Source: Stenotrophomonas maltophilia (GTDB lineage Bacteria > Pseudomonadota > Gammaproteobacteria > Xanthomonadales > Xanthomonadaceae). Taken from it: 64,000 nucleotides of DNA. Below, in pieces: positions 9,657-27,961 of the stretch. The stretch covers positions 1,692,001 to 1,756,000 of the forward strand of contig NZ_LT906480.1 of assembly GCF_900186865.1 (NCBI RefSeq), written 5' to 3'. Numbering within the stretch: position 1 is the first letter of the stretch; each line of letters starts with the position of its first letter. The notes below the pieces were generated by a model, which ran no database searches, was not told the origin of the DNA, and worked only from the letters and a program-made list of their open reading frames with translations. The position numbers and the translations under genes were made by a program.

Positions 9657-9952
9657 GGAGGGTGGATGCCGATCGTCGGTCGGCACACCTTCCGCAGGAC
9701 TGCAGCCGGGCCCTGGTCCGAAAAGATGAGTAACGGCGGCATGATCGCCTTTTCCCAGTAGCTTGGCGCGGCCATGTAGAAGCGCTGCGCCTGGGGCCTG
9801 GCGAACAAGCCGGCCGCCGCTGGCAGGGCCGAAGGCGGGTGAGGGTCTGGTAGGCCGCCAGGCCCAGGCAGGGCAGGGCAACCAGTGCCCCGGTGCCTCG
9901 GTTGCCGACGCAACTGTTGCGCCGCGCTGGAAACCGGGGTAGGGTCGATGCC

Positions 9953-10054
9953 ATGTCGATCCGCCTGGCCACCGCCGTCAACAACAACAACCGCAATAAT
10001 CTGCGCGCGAATAATCGTGCGCGGCCGATGCGGGACTGCGCCCTGGGTAGATAG
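9953..10054 (+). CDS. Asparagine-rich leader peptide of the asnB attenuator (33 aa)
   Basis: ATG 9953 opens a 33-codon frame ending at TAG 10052-10054. Residues 10-21 read NNNNRNNLRANN: eight asparagines in twelve residues, coded by four AAC and four AAT. An AGGG lies eight to eleven bases upstream of the ATG. The frame is followed after about 30 bases by an intrinsic terminator and then by asnB, the asparagine synthetase gene. This is the architecture of amino-acid leader-peptide attenuation (trp, his, leu, thr operons), in which scarcity of the charged tRNA stalls the ribosome at the control codons. Composition, position and the downstream RNA structure together make chance unlikely; function is inferred. 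Confidence 0.85.
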   Translation: MSIRLATAVNNNNRNNLRANNRARPMRDCALGR

Positions 10055-10110
10055 ACAGCAACACACGCCCGGACACCAGAAAACCCGCATCAGCCGATGC
10101 GGGTTTTTTT
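10024..10110 (+). promoter_or_regulatory. Transcription attenuator of asnB: antiterminator segment plus intrinsic terminator
   Basis: The terminator stem pairs CCCGCATC (10084-10091) with GATGCGGG (10096-10103) around loop AGCC, followed by seven T (10104-10110). The 11-base string GCCGATGCGGG occurs twice: at 10024-10034, inside the leader reading frame just after the Asn codons, and at 10093-10103 as the 3' arm of the terminator. The first copy can therefore pair with the same CCCGCATC and form a mutually exclusive antiterminator. An upstream CGCGC (10004-10008) can pair with GCGCG (10019-10023). This hairpin would sequester the start of the antiterminator region and would be opened by a ribosome stalled on the Asn codons. 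Pairings are read from sequence; the mechanism is inferred. Confidence 0.8.
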
Positions 10111-10192
10111 GTGCCCGGGCGCAGCCTGCCCGGGCCTGGATGGCCGGTCGAACACCTTCCCACCCGTGAAATTCCCCAACAGGAGCTCCCCC

Positions 10193-11884
10193 ATGTGTTC
10201 GATCTTCGGAATCTTCGGCCTGCAGGCCGGTGACGATCTTCCCACCCTGCGCCGCCACGCGTTGGAACTGTCGCAACGCCAGCGCCACCGTGGCCCGGAC
10301 TGGAGCGGCGTGTACCTCGACGAAGGTGCGCTGCTGGTCCATGAACGGCTGGCCATCGTCGATCCGGCCGGTGGTTCGCAGCCGCTGCTGTCGGCCGATG
10401 GCCAGCTGGCGCTGGCGGTGAACGGCGAGATCTACAACCACCAGGCGTTGACGGCGGCGCTGACCACCACCTACGACTTCCAGACCGGCTCGGACTGCGA
10501 GGTGATCAACGCGCTGTACCGCCAGGGCGGCGCGCCGGCGCAGTGGCTGGAACAGCTCAACGGCATCTTCGCCTTCGCGCTGTGGGACCGTGACAGTGGA
10601 CGCGTGCTGGTGGCGCGCGACCCGGTCGGTGTGGTGCCGCTGTACTGGGGCCACGACGCCCAGGGGCGCTTGCGCGTGGCCTCGGAAATGAAGGCGCTGG
10701 TCGATACCTGTGCCGATGTGGCGCAGTTCCCGCCGGGCCACTATTTCGACAGTGCCAGCGGTGAACTGGTGCGCTACTACCAGCAACCGTGGCGTGACTA
10801 TGCCGACGTGCAGGGTCGCCAGGCCGATCTGGCCGAACTGCGCCAGGCCTTCGAGCACGCGGTGGAACGCCAGTTGATGAGCGACGTGCCGTACGGCGTG
10901 CTGCTGTCCGGTGGCCTGGACTCGTCGCTGGTGGCGGCGGTAGCCGCGCGCTATGCACGTCGCCGCATCGAGGATGGCGGGCAGACCGAAGCCTGGTGGC
11001 CGCGCCTGCATTCGTTCGCGATCGGCTTGAAGGGCTCGCCCGATCTGGCTGCCGCTGCCATTGCTGCCGAAGCGCTGGGCACCGTGCATCACGGCTTCGA
11101 ATACACCTTCGAGGAAGGCCTCGATGCGCTGCCGGAAGTGATCCGCCACATCGAAACCTACGACGTCACCACCATCCGCGCCTCCACGCCGATGTTCCTG
11201 CTGGCGCGGCGGATCAAGGCGATGGGGGTGAAGATGGTGCTCTCCGGCGAGGGCAGCGATGAGATCTTTGGTGGCTACCTGTATTTCCACAAGGCACCGG
11301 ATGCGCGTGAATTCCACGAGGAGCTGGTGCGCAAGCTCGACGCGCTGCACAACTACGACTGCCTGCGTGCCAACAAGTCGATGATGGCCTGGGGGGTGGA
11401 GCCACGCGTGCCGTTCCTGGATCGTGAATTCCTCGACGTGGCGATGCGCTTCGATGCTGCGCACAAGATGGTCGGTGCCGGCTTCGGTGGCCGTCGCATC
11501 GAGAAGGCGGTGCTGCGCGAGGCATTCGACGGCTACCTGCCGGACAGCATCCTGTGGCGTCAGAAGGAGCAGTTCAGCGATGGCGTCGGCTATGGATGGA
11601 TCGACGGCCTGAAGGCGCATGCCGAGGCGCAGGTGAGTGACCGCGTGCTGGCGGCGGCCGACAAGCGCTTCCCGCACAACCCGCCGCAGACCAAGGAGGC
11701 GTATTACTACCGCCACCTGTTCGAGCAGTTCTTCCCCAGCCGTGCGGCCGCGGAGACCGTGCCGGGCGGCAAGTCGATCGCCTGCTCGTCGCCGGCGGCC
11801 ATTGCCTGGGACGCCAGCTTCGCCGCAGCTGCCGACCCTTCCGGACGCGCGATCGCCGGCGTGCACGAGCAGGCACTGGCCTAA
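10193..11884 (+). CDS. asnB: Asparagine synthetase (glutamine-hydrolysing)
   Basis: AsnB converts aspartate, glutamine and ATP to asparagine. The 563-residue product begins MCSIFGIFG, so Cys2 becomes the N-terminal nucleophile of the class II glutaminase domain (about residues 2-210, with RHRGPDWSG and NGEIYNH). The synthetase domain has the PP-loop YGVLLSGGLDSSLVAAVAAR near residue 235 and MVLSGEGSDEIFGGY near 350. E. coli AsnB has 554 residues. ATG 10193 has AGGAG eight bases upstream (10181-10185). Expression is likely controlled by the Asn-rich leader and terminator at 9953-10110. The gene appears monocistronic, ending at a perfect palindrome at 11890-11956. Confidence 0.97.
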   Translation: MCSIFGIFGLQAGDDLPTLRRHALELSQRQRHRGPDWSGVYLDEGALLVHERLAIVDPAGGSQPLLSADGQLALAVNGEIYNHQALTAALTTTYDFQTGSDCEVINALYRQGGAPAQWLEQLNGIFAFALWDRDSGRVLVARDPVGVVPLYWGHDAQGRLRVASEMKALVDTCADVAQFPPGHYFDSASGELVRYYQQPWRDYADVQGRQADLAELRQAFEHAVERQLMSDVPYGVLLSGGLDSSLVAAVAARYARRRIEDGGQTEAWWPRLHSFAIGLKGSPDLAAAAIAAEALGTVHHGFEYTFEEGLDALPEVIRHIETYDVTTIRASTPMFLLARRIKAMGVKMVLSGEGSDEIFGGYLYFHKAPDAREFHEELVRKLDALHNYDCLRANKSMMAWGVEPRVPFLDREFLDVAMRFDAAHKMVGAGFGGRRIEKAVLREAFDGYLPDSILWRQKEQFSDGVGYGWIDGLKAHAEAQVSDRVLAAADKRFPHNPPQTKEAYYYRHLFEQFFPSRAAAETVPGGKSIACSSPAAIAWDASFAAAADPSGRAIAGVHEQALA

Positions 11885-11889
11885 GCCCC

Positions 11890-11956
11890 AAAAAGGGGAC
11901 GGAGGGGATTAAGTCGTTAGTGGCACAAACGACTTAATCCCCTCCGTCCCCTTTTT
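11890..11956. repeat. Perfect 29-bp inverted repeat with A/T tails, probable bidirectional terminator / palindromic repeat element
   Basis: Left arm 11890-11918 and right arm 11928-11956 are exact reverse complements around a nine-base loop. The arm begins AAAAAGGGGACGGAGGGG, so either strand ends in a G/C-rich stem followed by five T. The perfection and length exceed an ordinary terminator and suggest a dispersed palindromic element inserted between asnB and the antiporter gene. Confidence 0.8.
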
Positions 11957-25649: not shown

Positions 25650-25734
<85 letters not shown>

Positions 25735-25784
25735 GACTCAGGAGATGAATTGTGCGGGACGGCAGAGAGTGTGTCAACAACATT

Positions 25785-26684
25785 TCACACATTTTTCTGC
25801 GGCTGCACGCCCAGGTGAAGCAGCAGGCTGCGCATCGCCGGTGACAGCTGCGCCCATCCGGCGAAACAGGCGCACAGGCGGCGCTGTGCCCACGCATCTG
25901 CAAGCGGAACCGCAACAGTACGGGTATTGCGTCGATGATGGCGGGCGATGGTGCGCGGCACGATGCCGACACCAATGCCGTGGCCGACCATGATGCACAC
26001 GCCTTCGAAGGTCTTCATGCGGATGCGCACGTCCAGGCGTCGCCCGATGTCGCGTGCCTGGTCTTCGATGTAGGCCTGCAGTGCATTGCCGTCGGCCAGC
26101 GCGACGAAGGTCTCGCCGGCAACATCGGCGAAGGCCACGCTGCGCCGCGATGCGAACCGGTGGTCTGCGGGCAGCAGCATCACCAGTGGATCTTCGGCGA
26201 CCACGTGCTGCTGCAGGCCGGCAGCGTCGACCGCATCACTGATGATGCCGGCTTCGGCCTGGCCAGCGTTGATCGCACGCACGACTTCGGGGCTGGTGCG
26301 CTCCAGCAGTTCCACGTGCAGGCGCGGGCGTTCGGCCAGCCACGGTGCCAGCCGCGAAGGCAGGTAGTTGGTCAGTGCTGCGGTGTTGGCATACAGATGC
26401 AGTGTGCCGCGCGCGCCGTGCGCGAACGCCTGCAGTTCACCGCGCAGCTGCGCCTGCTGCTGCAGGATCAATCGTGCATGGTGGGCGAGGGCGGCGCCGG
26501 CTTCGGTCAGGCTGACGCCGCGGGGGTGCCGGTTCAACAACGCGGTGCCGGCATCGGCTTCGATCGTGCGCAGGCGTTCGCTGGCCGACGCCAGTGCCAG
26601 GTTTGCCTGCGCTGCGCCGGCCGTGATGCTGCCCGCCTCGGCAATCGCCAGGAACAGGCGCAGGTCGGCGATATCCATCCGCAT
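25785..26684 (-). CDS. LysR-family transcriptional regulator
   Basis: The 299-residue protein has the N-terminal LysR winged helix (DLRLFLAIAEAGSITAGAAQ, then ALASASERLRTIEADAGTAL and LLNRHPRGVSLTEAG). The periplasmic-binding-like effector domain follows (LHVELLERTSPEVVRAINAG; GHGIGVGIVPRTIARHHR). ATG 26684 has GAGG eight bases upstream. It is divergent from a TauE/SafE permease gene 100 bases away, the usual arrangement for a LysR regulator and its target, so it probably controls that gene. The inducer is unknown. The pair sits between two identical tRNA-Leu genes. Confidence 0.9.
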   Translation of the reverse strand: MRMDIADLRLFLAIAEAGSITAGAAQANLALASASERLRTIEADAGTALLNRHPRGVSLTEAGAALAHHARLILQQQAQLRGELQAFAHGARGTLHLYANTAALTNYLPSRLAPWLAERPRLHVELLERTSPEVVRAINAGQAEAGIISDAVDAAGLQQHVVAEDPLVMLLPADHRFASRRSVAFADVAGETFVALADGNALQAYIEDQARDIGRRLDVRIRMKTFEGVCIMVGHGIGVGIVPRTIARHHRRNTRTVAVPLADAWAQRRLCACFAGWAQLSPAMRSLLLHLGVQPQKNV

Positions 26685-26783
26685 GTGATGCCCTCATCGC
26701 AACGGCTGCGCCTTCGGATCAGCCGAAGGCAAGGCCGGAAACACCGCATTGTGCGCCGAGCGGCCGGCCGATCCAATGAAGGC

Positions 26784-27530
26784 ATGAATGAATCGATCTA
26801 CTTCTACGTGCTGCTGGTGGTGGTGTTCGTGCTGGCCGGTGTGGTCAAGGGTGTGACTGGGATGGGGTTGCCGACGGTGGCGATGGGGCTGCTGGGCAGC
26901 ACGCTGTCGCCGGTGTCGGCCGCGTCGATGCTGTTCATTCCCACTTTCGTCACCAATGCGTGGCAGCTGTTGTCCGGGCCGTCACTGGACCGCATCGTGC
27001 GGCGCCTGTGGCCGATGATGCTGGCCGTGGTGGTGGTGACGCTGGGCTCGGCGGCGCTGCTGATGCGGGTCGATCGCACTTGGTCGCGCGTTGCGCTGGG
27101 CGTGGCATTGGTGGTCTATGCCGCCTATGCGTTGCTTGCGCCGGTGTTCCGCGTGCAGCAGCGGCGCGAGCGTTGGCTGGGGCCGCTGGTGGGTGCGTTG
27201 TCGGGCGTGGTGACCGGCGCCACCGGCGTGTTCGTGATGCCGGCGGTGCCGTACCTGCAGTCGCTGGGGTTGCAGCGCGAGGAGCTGGTGCAGGCGCTGG
27301 GGCTGGCGTTCACGGTGTCAACGATTTCGCTGACCGCCGGCCTGGTGCTGCACGGCGCATTCGGCATCCAGCAGCTGGGGCTGAGTGCGCTGGCGGTGCT
27401 GCCGGCATTGCTGGGCATGTGGCTGGGGCAGGTGATCCGGCAGCGCATCAGTGCGCGGGTGTTCCGGGGCTGCTTCCTGGGTTTCCTGCTGCTGCTCGGG
27501 CTGGAACTGGTGCTGCGGCCGCTGCTCTGA
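26784..27530 (+). CDS. TauE/SafE-family sulfite/organosulfur anion permease
   Basis: The 248-residue protein has about eight hydrophobic segments and the TauE/SafE hallmarks: an N-terminal GVVKGVTGMGLPTVAMGLLG, the mid-protein repeat GALSGVVTGATGVFVMPAVP and the C-terminal GMWLGQVIRQRISARVFRG. Members export sulfite, sulfoacetate or related anions. ATG 26784 is chosen because it begins the family N-terminus (NESIYFYVLLVVVFVLAG). The divergent LysR gene is the likely regulator. A hairpin shared with the tRNA terminator at 27549-27573 follows 19 bases after the stop. Confidence 0.9.
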   Translation: MNESIYFYVLLVVVFVLAGVVKGVTGMGLPTVAMGLLGSTLSPVSAASMLFIPTFVTNAWQLLSGPSLDRIVRRLWPMMLAVVVVTLGSAALLMRVDRTWSRVALGVALVVYAAYALLAPVFRVQQRRERWLGPLVGALSGVVTGATGVFVMPAVPYLQSLGLQREELVQALGLAFTVSTISLTAGLVLHGAFGIQQLGLSALAVLPALLGMWLGQVIRQRISARVFRGCFLGFLLLLGLELVLRPLL

Positions 27531-27548
27531 TGCCGGATTCCGGGCATG

Positions 27549-27573
27549 AAAAAACCCGCTCTCGCGGGTTTTT
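27549..27573. terminator. Bidirectional terminator between the TauE/SafE gene and tRNA-Leu copy 2
   Basis: AAAAAACCCGC, TCTC, GCGGGTTTTT: can end the permease mRNA (plus) and the tRNA transcript (minus). Confidence 0.8.
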
Positions 27574-27586
27574 CTCATTCTCGACG

Positions 27587-27671
<85 letters not shown>

Positions 27672-27838
27672 GTCGAGGAGCGAGATTATGGGGTGTTGTT
27701 ACGGGGGTGTCAACACTTTTTCTGGATCCGGTGTCGGACCTCGTTTCGGGTGCGGAGCGGGCTCTGACCCCATCTCACTCGCTTGGGGTCGGAGCGCTTT
27801 CCTTCGGAAAGGAATTCGGCCCCGTTGCTGGATTGCAG

Positions 27839-27871
27839 GCAAAAAAAATCCCCGCCGAAGCGAGGAGTTTT
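27839..27871 (-). terminator. Intrinsic terminator downstream of tRNA-Leu copy 3
   Basis: On the minus strand TCCTCGC, loop TTCG, GCGGGGA with one G-T pair, then eight T. Confidence 0.65.
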
Positions 27872-27876
27872 TTCGT

Positions 27877-27961
<85 letters not shown>

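Follow-up and report, generated by a model that had tools for sequence, protein, structure and literature searches.

Why does a short frame crowded with Asn codons precede a predicted terminator and the asparagine synthase gene asnB in Stenotrophomonas maltophilia? The preliminary description of the DNA analysed here (a stretch of 64,000 nucleotides, hereafter the window, whose positions are used throughout) had proposed the layout of trp/his/leu-type attenuation, with asparagine as the amino acid concerned. The classical trp, his, leu, ilv, thr and phe attenuators combine a leader frame carrying codons for the product amino acid, segments 1-4, an intrinsic terminator and a biosynthetic gene, and the asnB leader shares the product-codon frame, the four predicted segments, the predicted terminator and the biosynthetic gene. 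Sequence comparison establishes the parts of this leader, how they are conserved, how segment 3 can pair alternatively and how the parts are spaced, and the features that were tested with a clear outcome place the element among the ribosome-mediated attenuators. We regard it as highly probable that the asnB leader is an Asn-specific, ribosome-mediated transcription attenuator that would sense the charging of Asn-tRNA, probably from a leaderless mRNA.

Layout of the asnB leader

All parts of the locus, except for a palindrome described below, lie on the plus strand. The leader frame MSIRLATAVNNNNRNNLRANNRARPMRDCALGR (9953-10054) has 33 codons and the stop codon TAG (10052-10054), and eight of the twelve codons at 9980-10015 are Asn codons, AAC as well as AAT (9980-9991, 9995-10000 and 10010-10015), as the preliminary description had read it. 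No other 12-codon stretch with eight Asn was found in the six frames of the window, and 8 of its 127,930 twelve-codon stretches contain at least six. The pattern AAYAAYNNNAAYAAY matched eight times in the 5.0-Mb, single-contig genome and the reversed control seven times, and because these frequencies are about equal, the Asn run was dropped as stand-alone evidence.

Segment 2 (GATGCGGG, 10027-10034), the putative 5' arm of the antiterminator, begins 11 nt past the last Asn codon. Segment 3 (CCCGCATC, 10084-10091), identified from the sequence and the pairing comparisons, is common to the antiterminator and the terminator. The predicted intrinsic terminator hairpin AAAACCCGCATC-AGCC-GATGCGGGTTTT (10080-10107; -18.3 kcal/mol) is separated from the leader frame by 25 nt; it contains the segment 4 core (10096-10103) and is overlapped by a T run (10104-10110), of which three T lie beyond the hairpin. 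The 11-base repeat GCCGATGCGGG stands at 10024-10034 and 10093-10103, and this repeat and segment 3 lie where they had been placed before. The leader fold and the alignment also point to a hairpin, TGCGCGCGA/TCGTGCGCG (10002-10023), that encloses the last two Asn codons. Combined with the pairing 9991-9995:10029-10033, this hairpin makes up the putative pre-emptor 1:2, which would compete for segment 2. The 163-nt leader as a whole has a predicted folding energy of -70.1 kcal/mol versus a shuffle mean of -50.7 (z = -4.65), and none of 200 shuffles was as low.

The gene behind the terminator bears out the order leader, terminator, asnB. It is preceded by the Shine-Dalgarno sequence AGGAG (10181-10185) and encodes a glutamine-hydrolysing asparagine synthase B (10193-11884), the proposed target of the regulation, whose product scores 866 bits against NF006949 (cut-off 499) and also exceeds the cut-off of TIGR01536. 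Among the best 80 of 586 matches in a GTDB scan, the nearest named asnB match is in S. maltophilia (98%). A simple consensus scan called neither a sigma-70-like promoter nor the 10080-10110 terminator at the locus; the terminator was probably missed because its stem absorbs most of the T run. Since the Asn run is not rare in itself and the scanner misses these signals, the case rests on the combination of the parts and on its conservation.

Two repeated features elsewhere in the window are recorded here. Directly 3' of asnB lies a perfect inverted repeat, GGGGACGGAGGGGATTAAGTCG (11895-11951), a 22-mer of which has 76 copies in the genome (39 forward and 37 reverse, with at most two mismatches), often as facing pairs; it represents a dispersed repeat family that may serve as a terminator. 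Three tRNA-Leu(CAG) genes stand within 2.4 kb on the minus strand (25650-27961), and a further tRNA-Leu(CAG) call (2537-2632) is absent among the Rfam tRNA matches.

Conservation and alternative pairing

We compiled 152 asnB loci, comprising 30 from 61 genomes, 18 fetched stretches, the best 80 of the 586 GTDB-scan matches and 24 new loci from 250 genomes of the order, and scored a leader where a frame with at least three Asn in 12 codons was followed by a hairpin. Such a frame and hairpin were present at 129 of the 152 loci (112 distinct leaders), in support of the attenuation layout proposed for asparagine. The leader and terminator, together with a segment 2 that copies segment 4, occur in Stenotrophomonas, Xanthomonas, Pseudoxanthomonas, Luteimonas, Thermomonas, Lysobacter, Arenimonas, Dyella, Rhodanobacter, Luteibacter and others, and we assign the named genera, judging from their names, to Xanthomonadaceae and Rhodanobacteraceae.

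No leader was found at 23 of the 152 loci. In L059, L066 and L097, asnB is 74-81% identical and the upstream DNA is different; L070 includes just 60 nt of upstream sequence; L102-L110 lie outside the leader-carrying families, although the upstream frame of L102 is that of L119, an order member; L114-L117, L119, L120, L123 and L124 are order members with asnB 62-68% identical; and L098 and L099 complete the set. Eight of these loci, with a weak Asn match but no leader, had been removed from the leader set (L102-L105, L110, L115, L119 and L120). Of thirteen further loci, L199-L204 have no Asn-rich frame and the seven others (L192-L198) do, L193 and L196 being repeats of L053 and L056. AsnB was detected at E ≤1e-100 in 6 of 323 genomes of the class, and in the two of these six that lie outside the order (L203 and L204) the same script found no comparable leader. 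Two of these additional loci are unusual: in L194 the Asn-rich leader lies 341 nt from asnB, with GC-rich, repeat-like sequence between them, and asnB may be controlled differently at this locus; upstream of asnB in L204 stands NKNNNKPSPTRTRVPTEK, a stretch rich in Asn that has no leader-type start or stop and lies in a frame without a stop before asnB.

The leaders are built differently in three clades. Clade A (Stenotrophomonas, Xanthomonas, Pseudoxanthomonas and Luteimonas) has NNRARPMR and similar peptides, clade B (Lysobacter) has NNNNRNNASLPRAGD, and clade C (Rhodanobacter, Dyella, Luteibacter and family f2) has NNNRANNNANRW or NANTNNARN; five leaders are of odd types (L082, L085, L088, L090 and L096). 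The arrangement of the Asn codons, the surrounding DNA and the peptide outside the Asn codons vary between clades, and the Asn density is retained, with a median of 6 per 12 codons in 87 representative leaders. The mean maximum is 6.0 N per 12 codons in the leader frame, versus 0.03 and 0.06 in the other two frames. The terminators have on average 7.1 T in the last 4 stem and 8 tail bases (minimum 3; 112 leaders), and a rule demanding an unbroken T run recognised no terminator in 12 of 94 leaders.

Substitutions in 124 close pairs of leaders fell on codon positions 1, 2 and 3 in 269, 366 and 339 cases, with no third-position excess, and a codon-position signal is therefore not available as proof of leader translation. 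The synonymous share is moderately raised at the leader Asn codons (111 of 313, versus 0.17 expected; other codons, 117 of 471). Separately, the leaders favour AAT, the rarer Asn codon, which accounts for 262 of the 562 Asn codons of the 87 representatives; in five long window frames its share is 6 of 49.

The preliminary description had held that one and the same segment 3 can pair in an antiterminator or a terminator, and the comparison across loci agrees. At least seven contiguous 2:3 pairs, between the last 48 nt of the frame and the 5' arm of the terminator, are possible in 91 of the 112 leaders, and the 2:3 pairing exceeds that of codon-shuffled frames at p <0.05 in 77 of 112. When partners were permuted among the 87 representatives, the summed score of the own partners (1721) was matched by none of 5000 permutations (mean 1519, sd 24), a test that ignores relatedness, so that its strength comes mostly from differences between clades. 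As an example, segment 2 of clade B scores 13.1 with segment 3 of clade A and 19.5 with its own.

Three alignments (clade A, 40 sequences; clade B, 15; clade C, 29) cover 84 of the 112 distinct leaders, the other 28 being more clade A leaders and the five odd ones. The alignment check proposed at the outset supports the interpretation: the Asn density is kept, and compensatory 2:3 change is clear in Lysobacter and across clades; none is seen in Stenotrophomonas/Xanthomonas, and it is weak in Rhodanobacter/Dyella. In the clade A and clade C alignments, whose cores hardly vary, 2:3 is 94.5% paired with no covariation and 91.6% paired with weak covariation, respectively. In the 15 Lysobacter loci it is 96.7% paired, and one pair is G-C in 10 loci and A-U in 5, an exchange that may be a single event; the matching terminator pair in the five A-U loci is U-G, and the antiterminator is therefore the tighter partner there. 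The Lysobacter pre-emptor, which begins right after the last Asn codon, is 98.3% paired, and both partners have changed in two of its pairs. For the clade A hairpin that encloses the last Asn codons, 80% of cells are paired (40 sequences); its covariation is weak, with a score reached by 1 of 500 shuffles and a count of three pairs changed on both sides reached by 46 of 500. A pre-emptor is seen by eye in clade C, and the five odd leaders pair poorly.

Two covariance models, R1 and R2, gave strong matches in 41 (E up to 1.4e-11) and 48 (E up to 8.4e-10) of the 250 order genomes, with a union of 88 genomes, all of them asnB carriers; in the rows compared by eye (G231, G164, G263, G278 and G216) the match lies just upstream of asnB. 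Nine weaker matches of R1, the clade A model, off asnB were read, and eight proved to be LVLV-type frames (L183 and L185-L191), with none in L184. Since the weaker matches that were read are mostly of this type, the total tallies of 214/250 and 207/250 genomes are not counts of Asn leaders, and the models were rejected as specific Asn-leader detectors.

Putative start site, ribosome position and proposed mechanism

The sequence upstream of the frame suggests where transcription might begin. A putative -35 element, TTGCGC (9917-9922), is conserved in its spacing to the leader start, and a putative -10 element, TAGGGT (9940-9945), lies 17 nt past it at a conserved position in the anchored alignment. 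Of the 112 distinct leaders, 106 have a TTGC or TTGT whose first base lies 35-37 nt upstream of an in-frame start, a count biased upward because the start was chosen partly by the same distance (search window, 32-41 nt). In the sequences read, about 6-8 nt separate the ATG from the end of a -10-like block (TAGGGT, TACGGT, TCTAGT or CAGGAT) upstream of it. The distance is 7 nt in the window, so that transcription probably starts at or near the ATG, and the leader mRNA is probably leaderless. In 91 dereplicated loci the mean anti-Shine-Dalgarno energy is -6.5 for asnB versus -3.8 for the leader, with values of -5 or better in 83 and 28 loci, respectively. A precedent for such a start is the Sinorhizobium meliloti trpL attenuator, which senses tryptophan and whose RNA is reported to have its 5' end at the leader-frame ATG (PMC7298713); the trpL leader RNA and peptide are reported also to act in trans.

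The putative -35 element is overlapped by a palindrome, GCAACTGTTGC (9910-9920, no strand assigned), a possible regulator site. By eye, GCAAC/AAAC-N-GTTGC recurs at the equivalent place in many clade A loci, including Stenotrophomonas and Xanthomonas. Other TTGC/GCAA inverted repeats stand at the promoter in some Lysobacter- and Thermomonas-type loci.

A ribosome reaches about 11 nt ahead of its A site. An Asn pair could be counted in 84 representatives; the gap between the last adjacent Asn codon and segment 2 is exactly 11 nt in 45 of them and 10-26 nt in the rest. We folded 109 of the 112 distinct leaders with a ribosome whose front edge is taken, as is usual, at 10 nt past the A-site codon, and calculated the probability of 2:3 pairing, P(2:3), before segment 4 emerges. 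For the window leader, the predicted P(2:3) is 0.19 in free RNA versus 0.996 once a ribosome occupies the last Asn codons. Values above 0.5 were predicted for 95 of 109 leaders with a stalled ribosome versus 61 of 109 as free RNA, and P(2:3) stays below 0.3 even with a stalled ribosome in 13 of 109; two of the five odd leaders exceed 0.5 when stalled. Free RNA already favours 2:3 in 33/61 leaders of clade A, 12/14 of clade B, 14/29 of clade C and 2/5 others, so that the decision does not lie with the pre-emptor in every leader. With a ribosome at the stop codon, the assumed footprint covers at least part of segment 2 in 87 of 109 leaders; in the window leader the two miss each other by 3 nt.

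From these features we infer the transcription start, translation, termination and Asn-tRNA response as follows. RNA polymerase would start at or near the leader ATG, with a ribosome following it. With charged Asn-tRNA available, the ribosome would clear the Asn codons, and either the ribosome at the stop codon or, after its release, the pre-emptor would withhold segment 2 from segment 3; 3:4 would then form and transcription would end near 10110. With charged Asn-tRNA scarce, the ribosome would pause at an Asn codon, its leading edge stopping shortly before segment 2, leaving 2:3 free to pair, and no terminator would form, so that asnB would be transcribed.

Competing readings, relatives and asparagine supply

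Leaders of the same layout stand before other biosynthetic genes in the order. In the own genome, L183:215-343 (C1:4115567-4115695) carries MLHHNTPPRTHIEAADTGAASLRSILVLVLITQPTGAGRASV, then the terminator CCCGCACC/GGTGCGGG and then a frame that we take, by motif, to be IlvC-like. L186 has a leader similar to that of L183, and in L189 MVGRMSQRNNPCRTAETNRLPTVAGLLQLRGTLLLTLVLVLLIINGGAG precedes a frame that, again by motif, is presumably 2-isopropylmalate-synthase-like. These ilvC/leu leaders resemble the asnB leader in having a codon run and then a GGTGCGGG-like segment that is repeated in the terminator; they differ in that their runs are LVLVLIT-type branched-chain codons, whereas that of asnB is Asn. 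The ilv-type leaders have a promoter-like TTGACA close before the ATG. The occurrence of ilv/leu-type leaders with the same layout indicates that the order uses the design for other amino acids.

These relatives bear on the reading in which the terminator is constitutive or under other control, for example by a regulator acting at the GCAACNGTTGC palindrome, and the Asn run, being left-over sequence of low complexity, senses nothing. The recurrence of the palindrome in clade A, the similar runs elsewhere in the genome and the lack of a codon-position signal are compatible with it. However, three clades with differently built leaders have all retained the Asn density, the frame, the distance to segment 2 and a 2:3 pairing specific to the own partner, and the same layout is found with other codons before the IlvC-like and 2-isopropylmalate-synthase-like genes, and we consider this reading improbable. 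Still less likely is that the product of the frame is a small protein with a function of its own, or an arrest peptide that the ribosome senses, with asnB expressed by terminator read-through at a fixed rate: a frame of 21-44 codons is indeed kept in the 87 representatives, but the non-Asn part of the peptide is not conserved between clades, third positions show no excess of substitutions, and the last codons of the frame are also segment 2, the DNA of which tracks segment 3. A riboswitch or T-box, in which the RNA itself would bind asparagine or uncharged tRNA and so control the terminator, was rejected as the least credible reading, since the locus has no Rfam match at gathering score and, with a transcription start at the ATG, the region upstream of the Asn run would leave too little room for a T-box, even though Asn T-boxes exist in Firmicutes. 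The Firmicutes Asn T-box responds to tRNA-Asn charging, an input that it would share with the asnB leader; the latter would sense it by means of a translating ribosome, and has no T-box match. Attenuation by the translating ribosome remains the preferred reading.

The asnB leader is also distinct from the attenuators recorded in Rfam: it would be Asn-specific and scores below all thresholds, the best leader-type matches at the locus being far below theirs (Thr_leader, 22.8 of 55 bits, a match of the model end over the terminator; Leu_leader, 20.0 of 50). The preliminary description had suggested that an Asn leader peptide may be undescribed or little known, and we found no Asn attenuator in Rfam or among the titles and abstract openings listed from the open literature, where no paper combining asnB, attenuator and leader peptide was found either. 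The main texts of an attenuator survey (PMC2965389) and of PMC1262725 contain neither 'asnB' nor 'asparag'. The search covered the open literature, so that priority is not established; the design of the attenuator is classical, and asparagine as the sensed amino acid seems to be new.

The supply of asparagine to tRNA offers a setting for such a regulator. Among the 250 order genomes, 171 have AsnB (E ≤1e-100), 53 have GatB, which marks the other route to Asn-tRNA (E ≤1e-50), none has both and 26 have neither; the chance of this under independence is 7e-35, a statistic that ignores relatedness. As AsnB and GatB do not co-occur, Asn-tRNA charging in asnB carriers should depend on free asparagine, and 59 of 61 relatives have an AsnRS match above the cut-off. 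Genus g37 of family f12 appears to have switched between the two, with GatB and no AsnB in G065 and AsnB and no GatB in G246. Some GatB-free genomes have no Asn leader (e.g. G042 and G044), and the loss of GatB thus does not require one. Four near-complete genomes of the same family (G149, G202, G256 and G261) have no AsnB (E ≤1e-100) and no GatB match; they are possibly asparagine auxotrophs or AsnA users.

We lean slightly towards a broader reading, in which the element is the first Asn-specific ribosome-mediated attenuator and has a single origin, in the ancestor shared by Xanthomonadaceae, Rhodanobacteraceae and family f2, after the loss of GatCAB had left free asparagine, and hence AsnB, as the sole route to Asn-tRNA, with a leaderless mRNA and a design seemingly used for the ilv leaders of the order too. 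If the attenuator works as proposed, asparagine would join the amino acids sensed by a translating ribosome, and the regulator would be linked to a change in the route of Asn-tRNA synthesis, as reflected in the mutually exclusive AsnB and GatB genomes. A shortage of asparagine probably turns on its synthesis in the carriers, among which are major plant pathogens and one opportunistic human pathogen.
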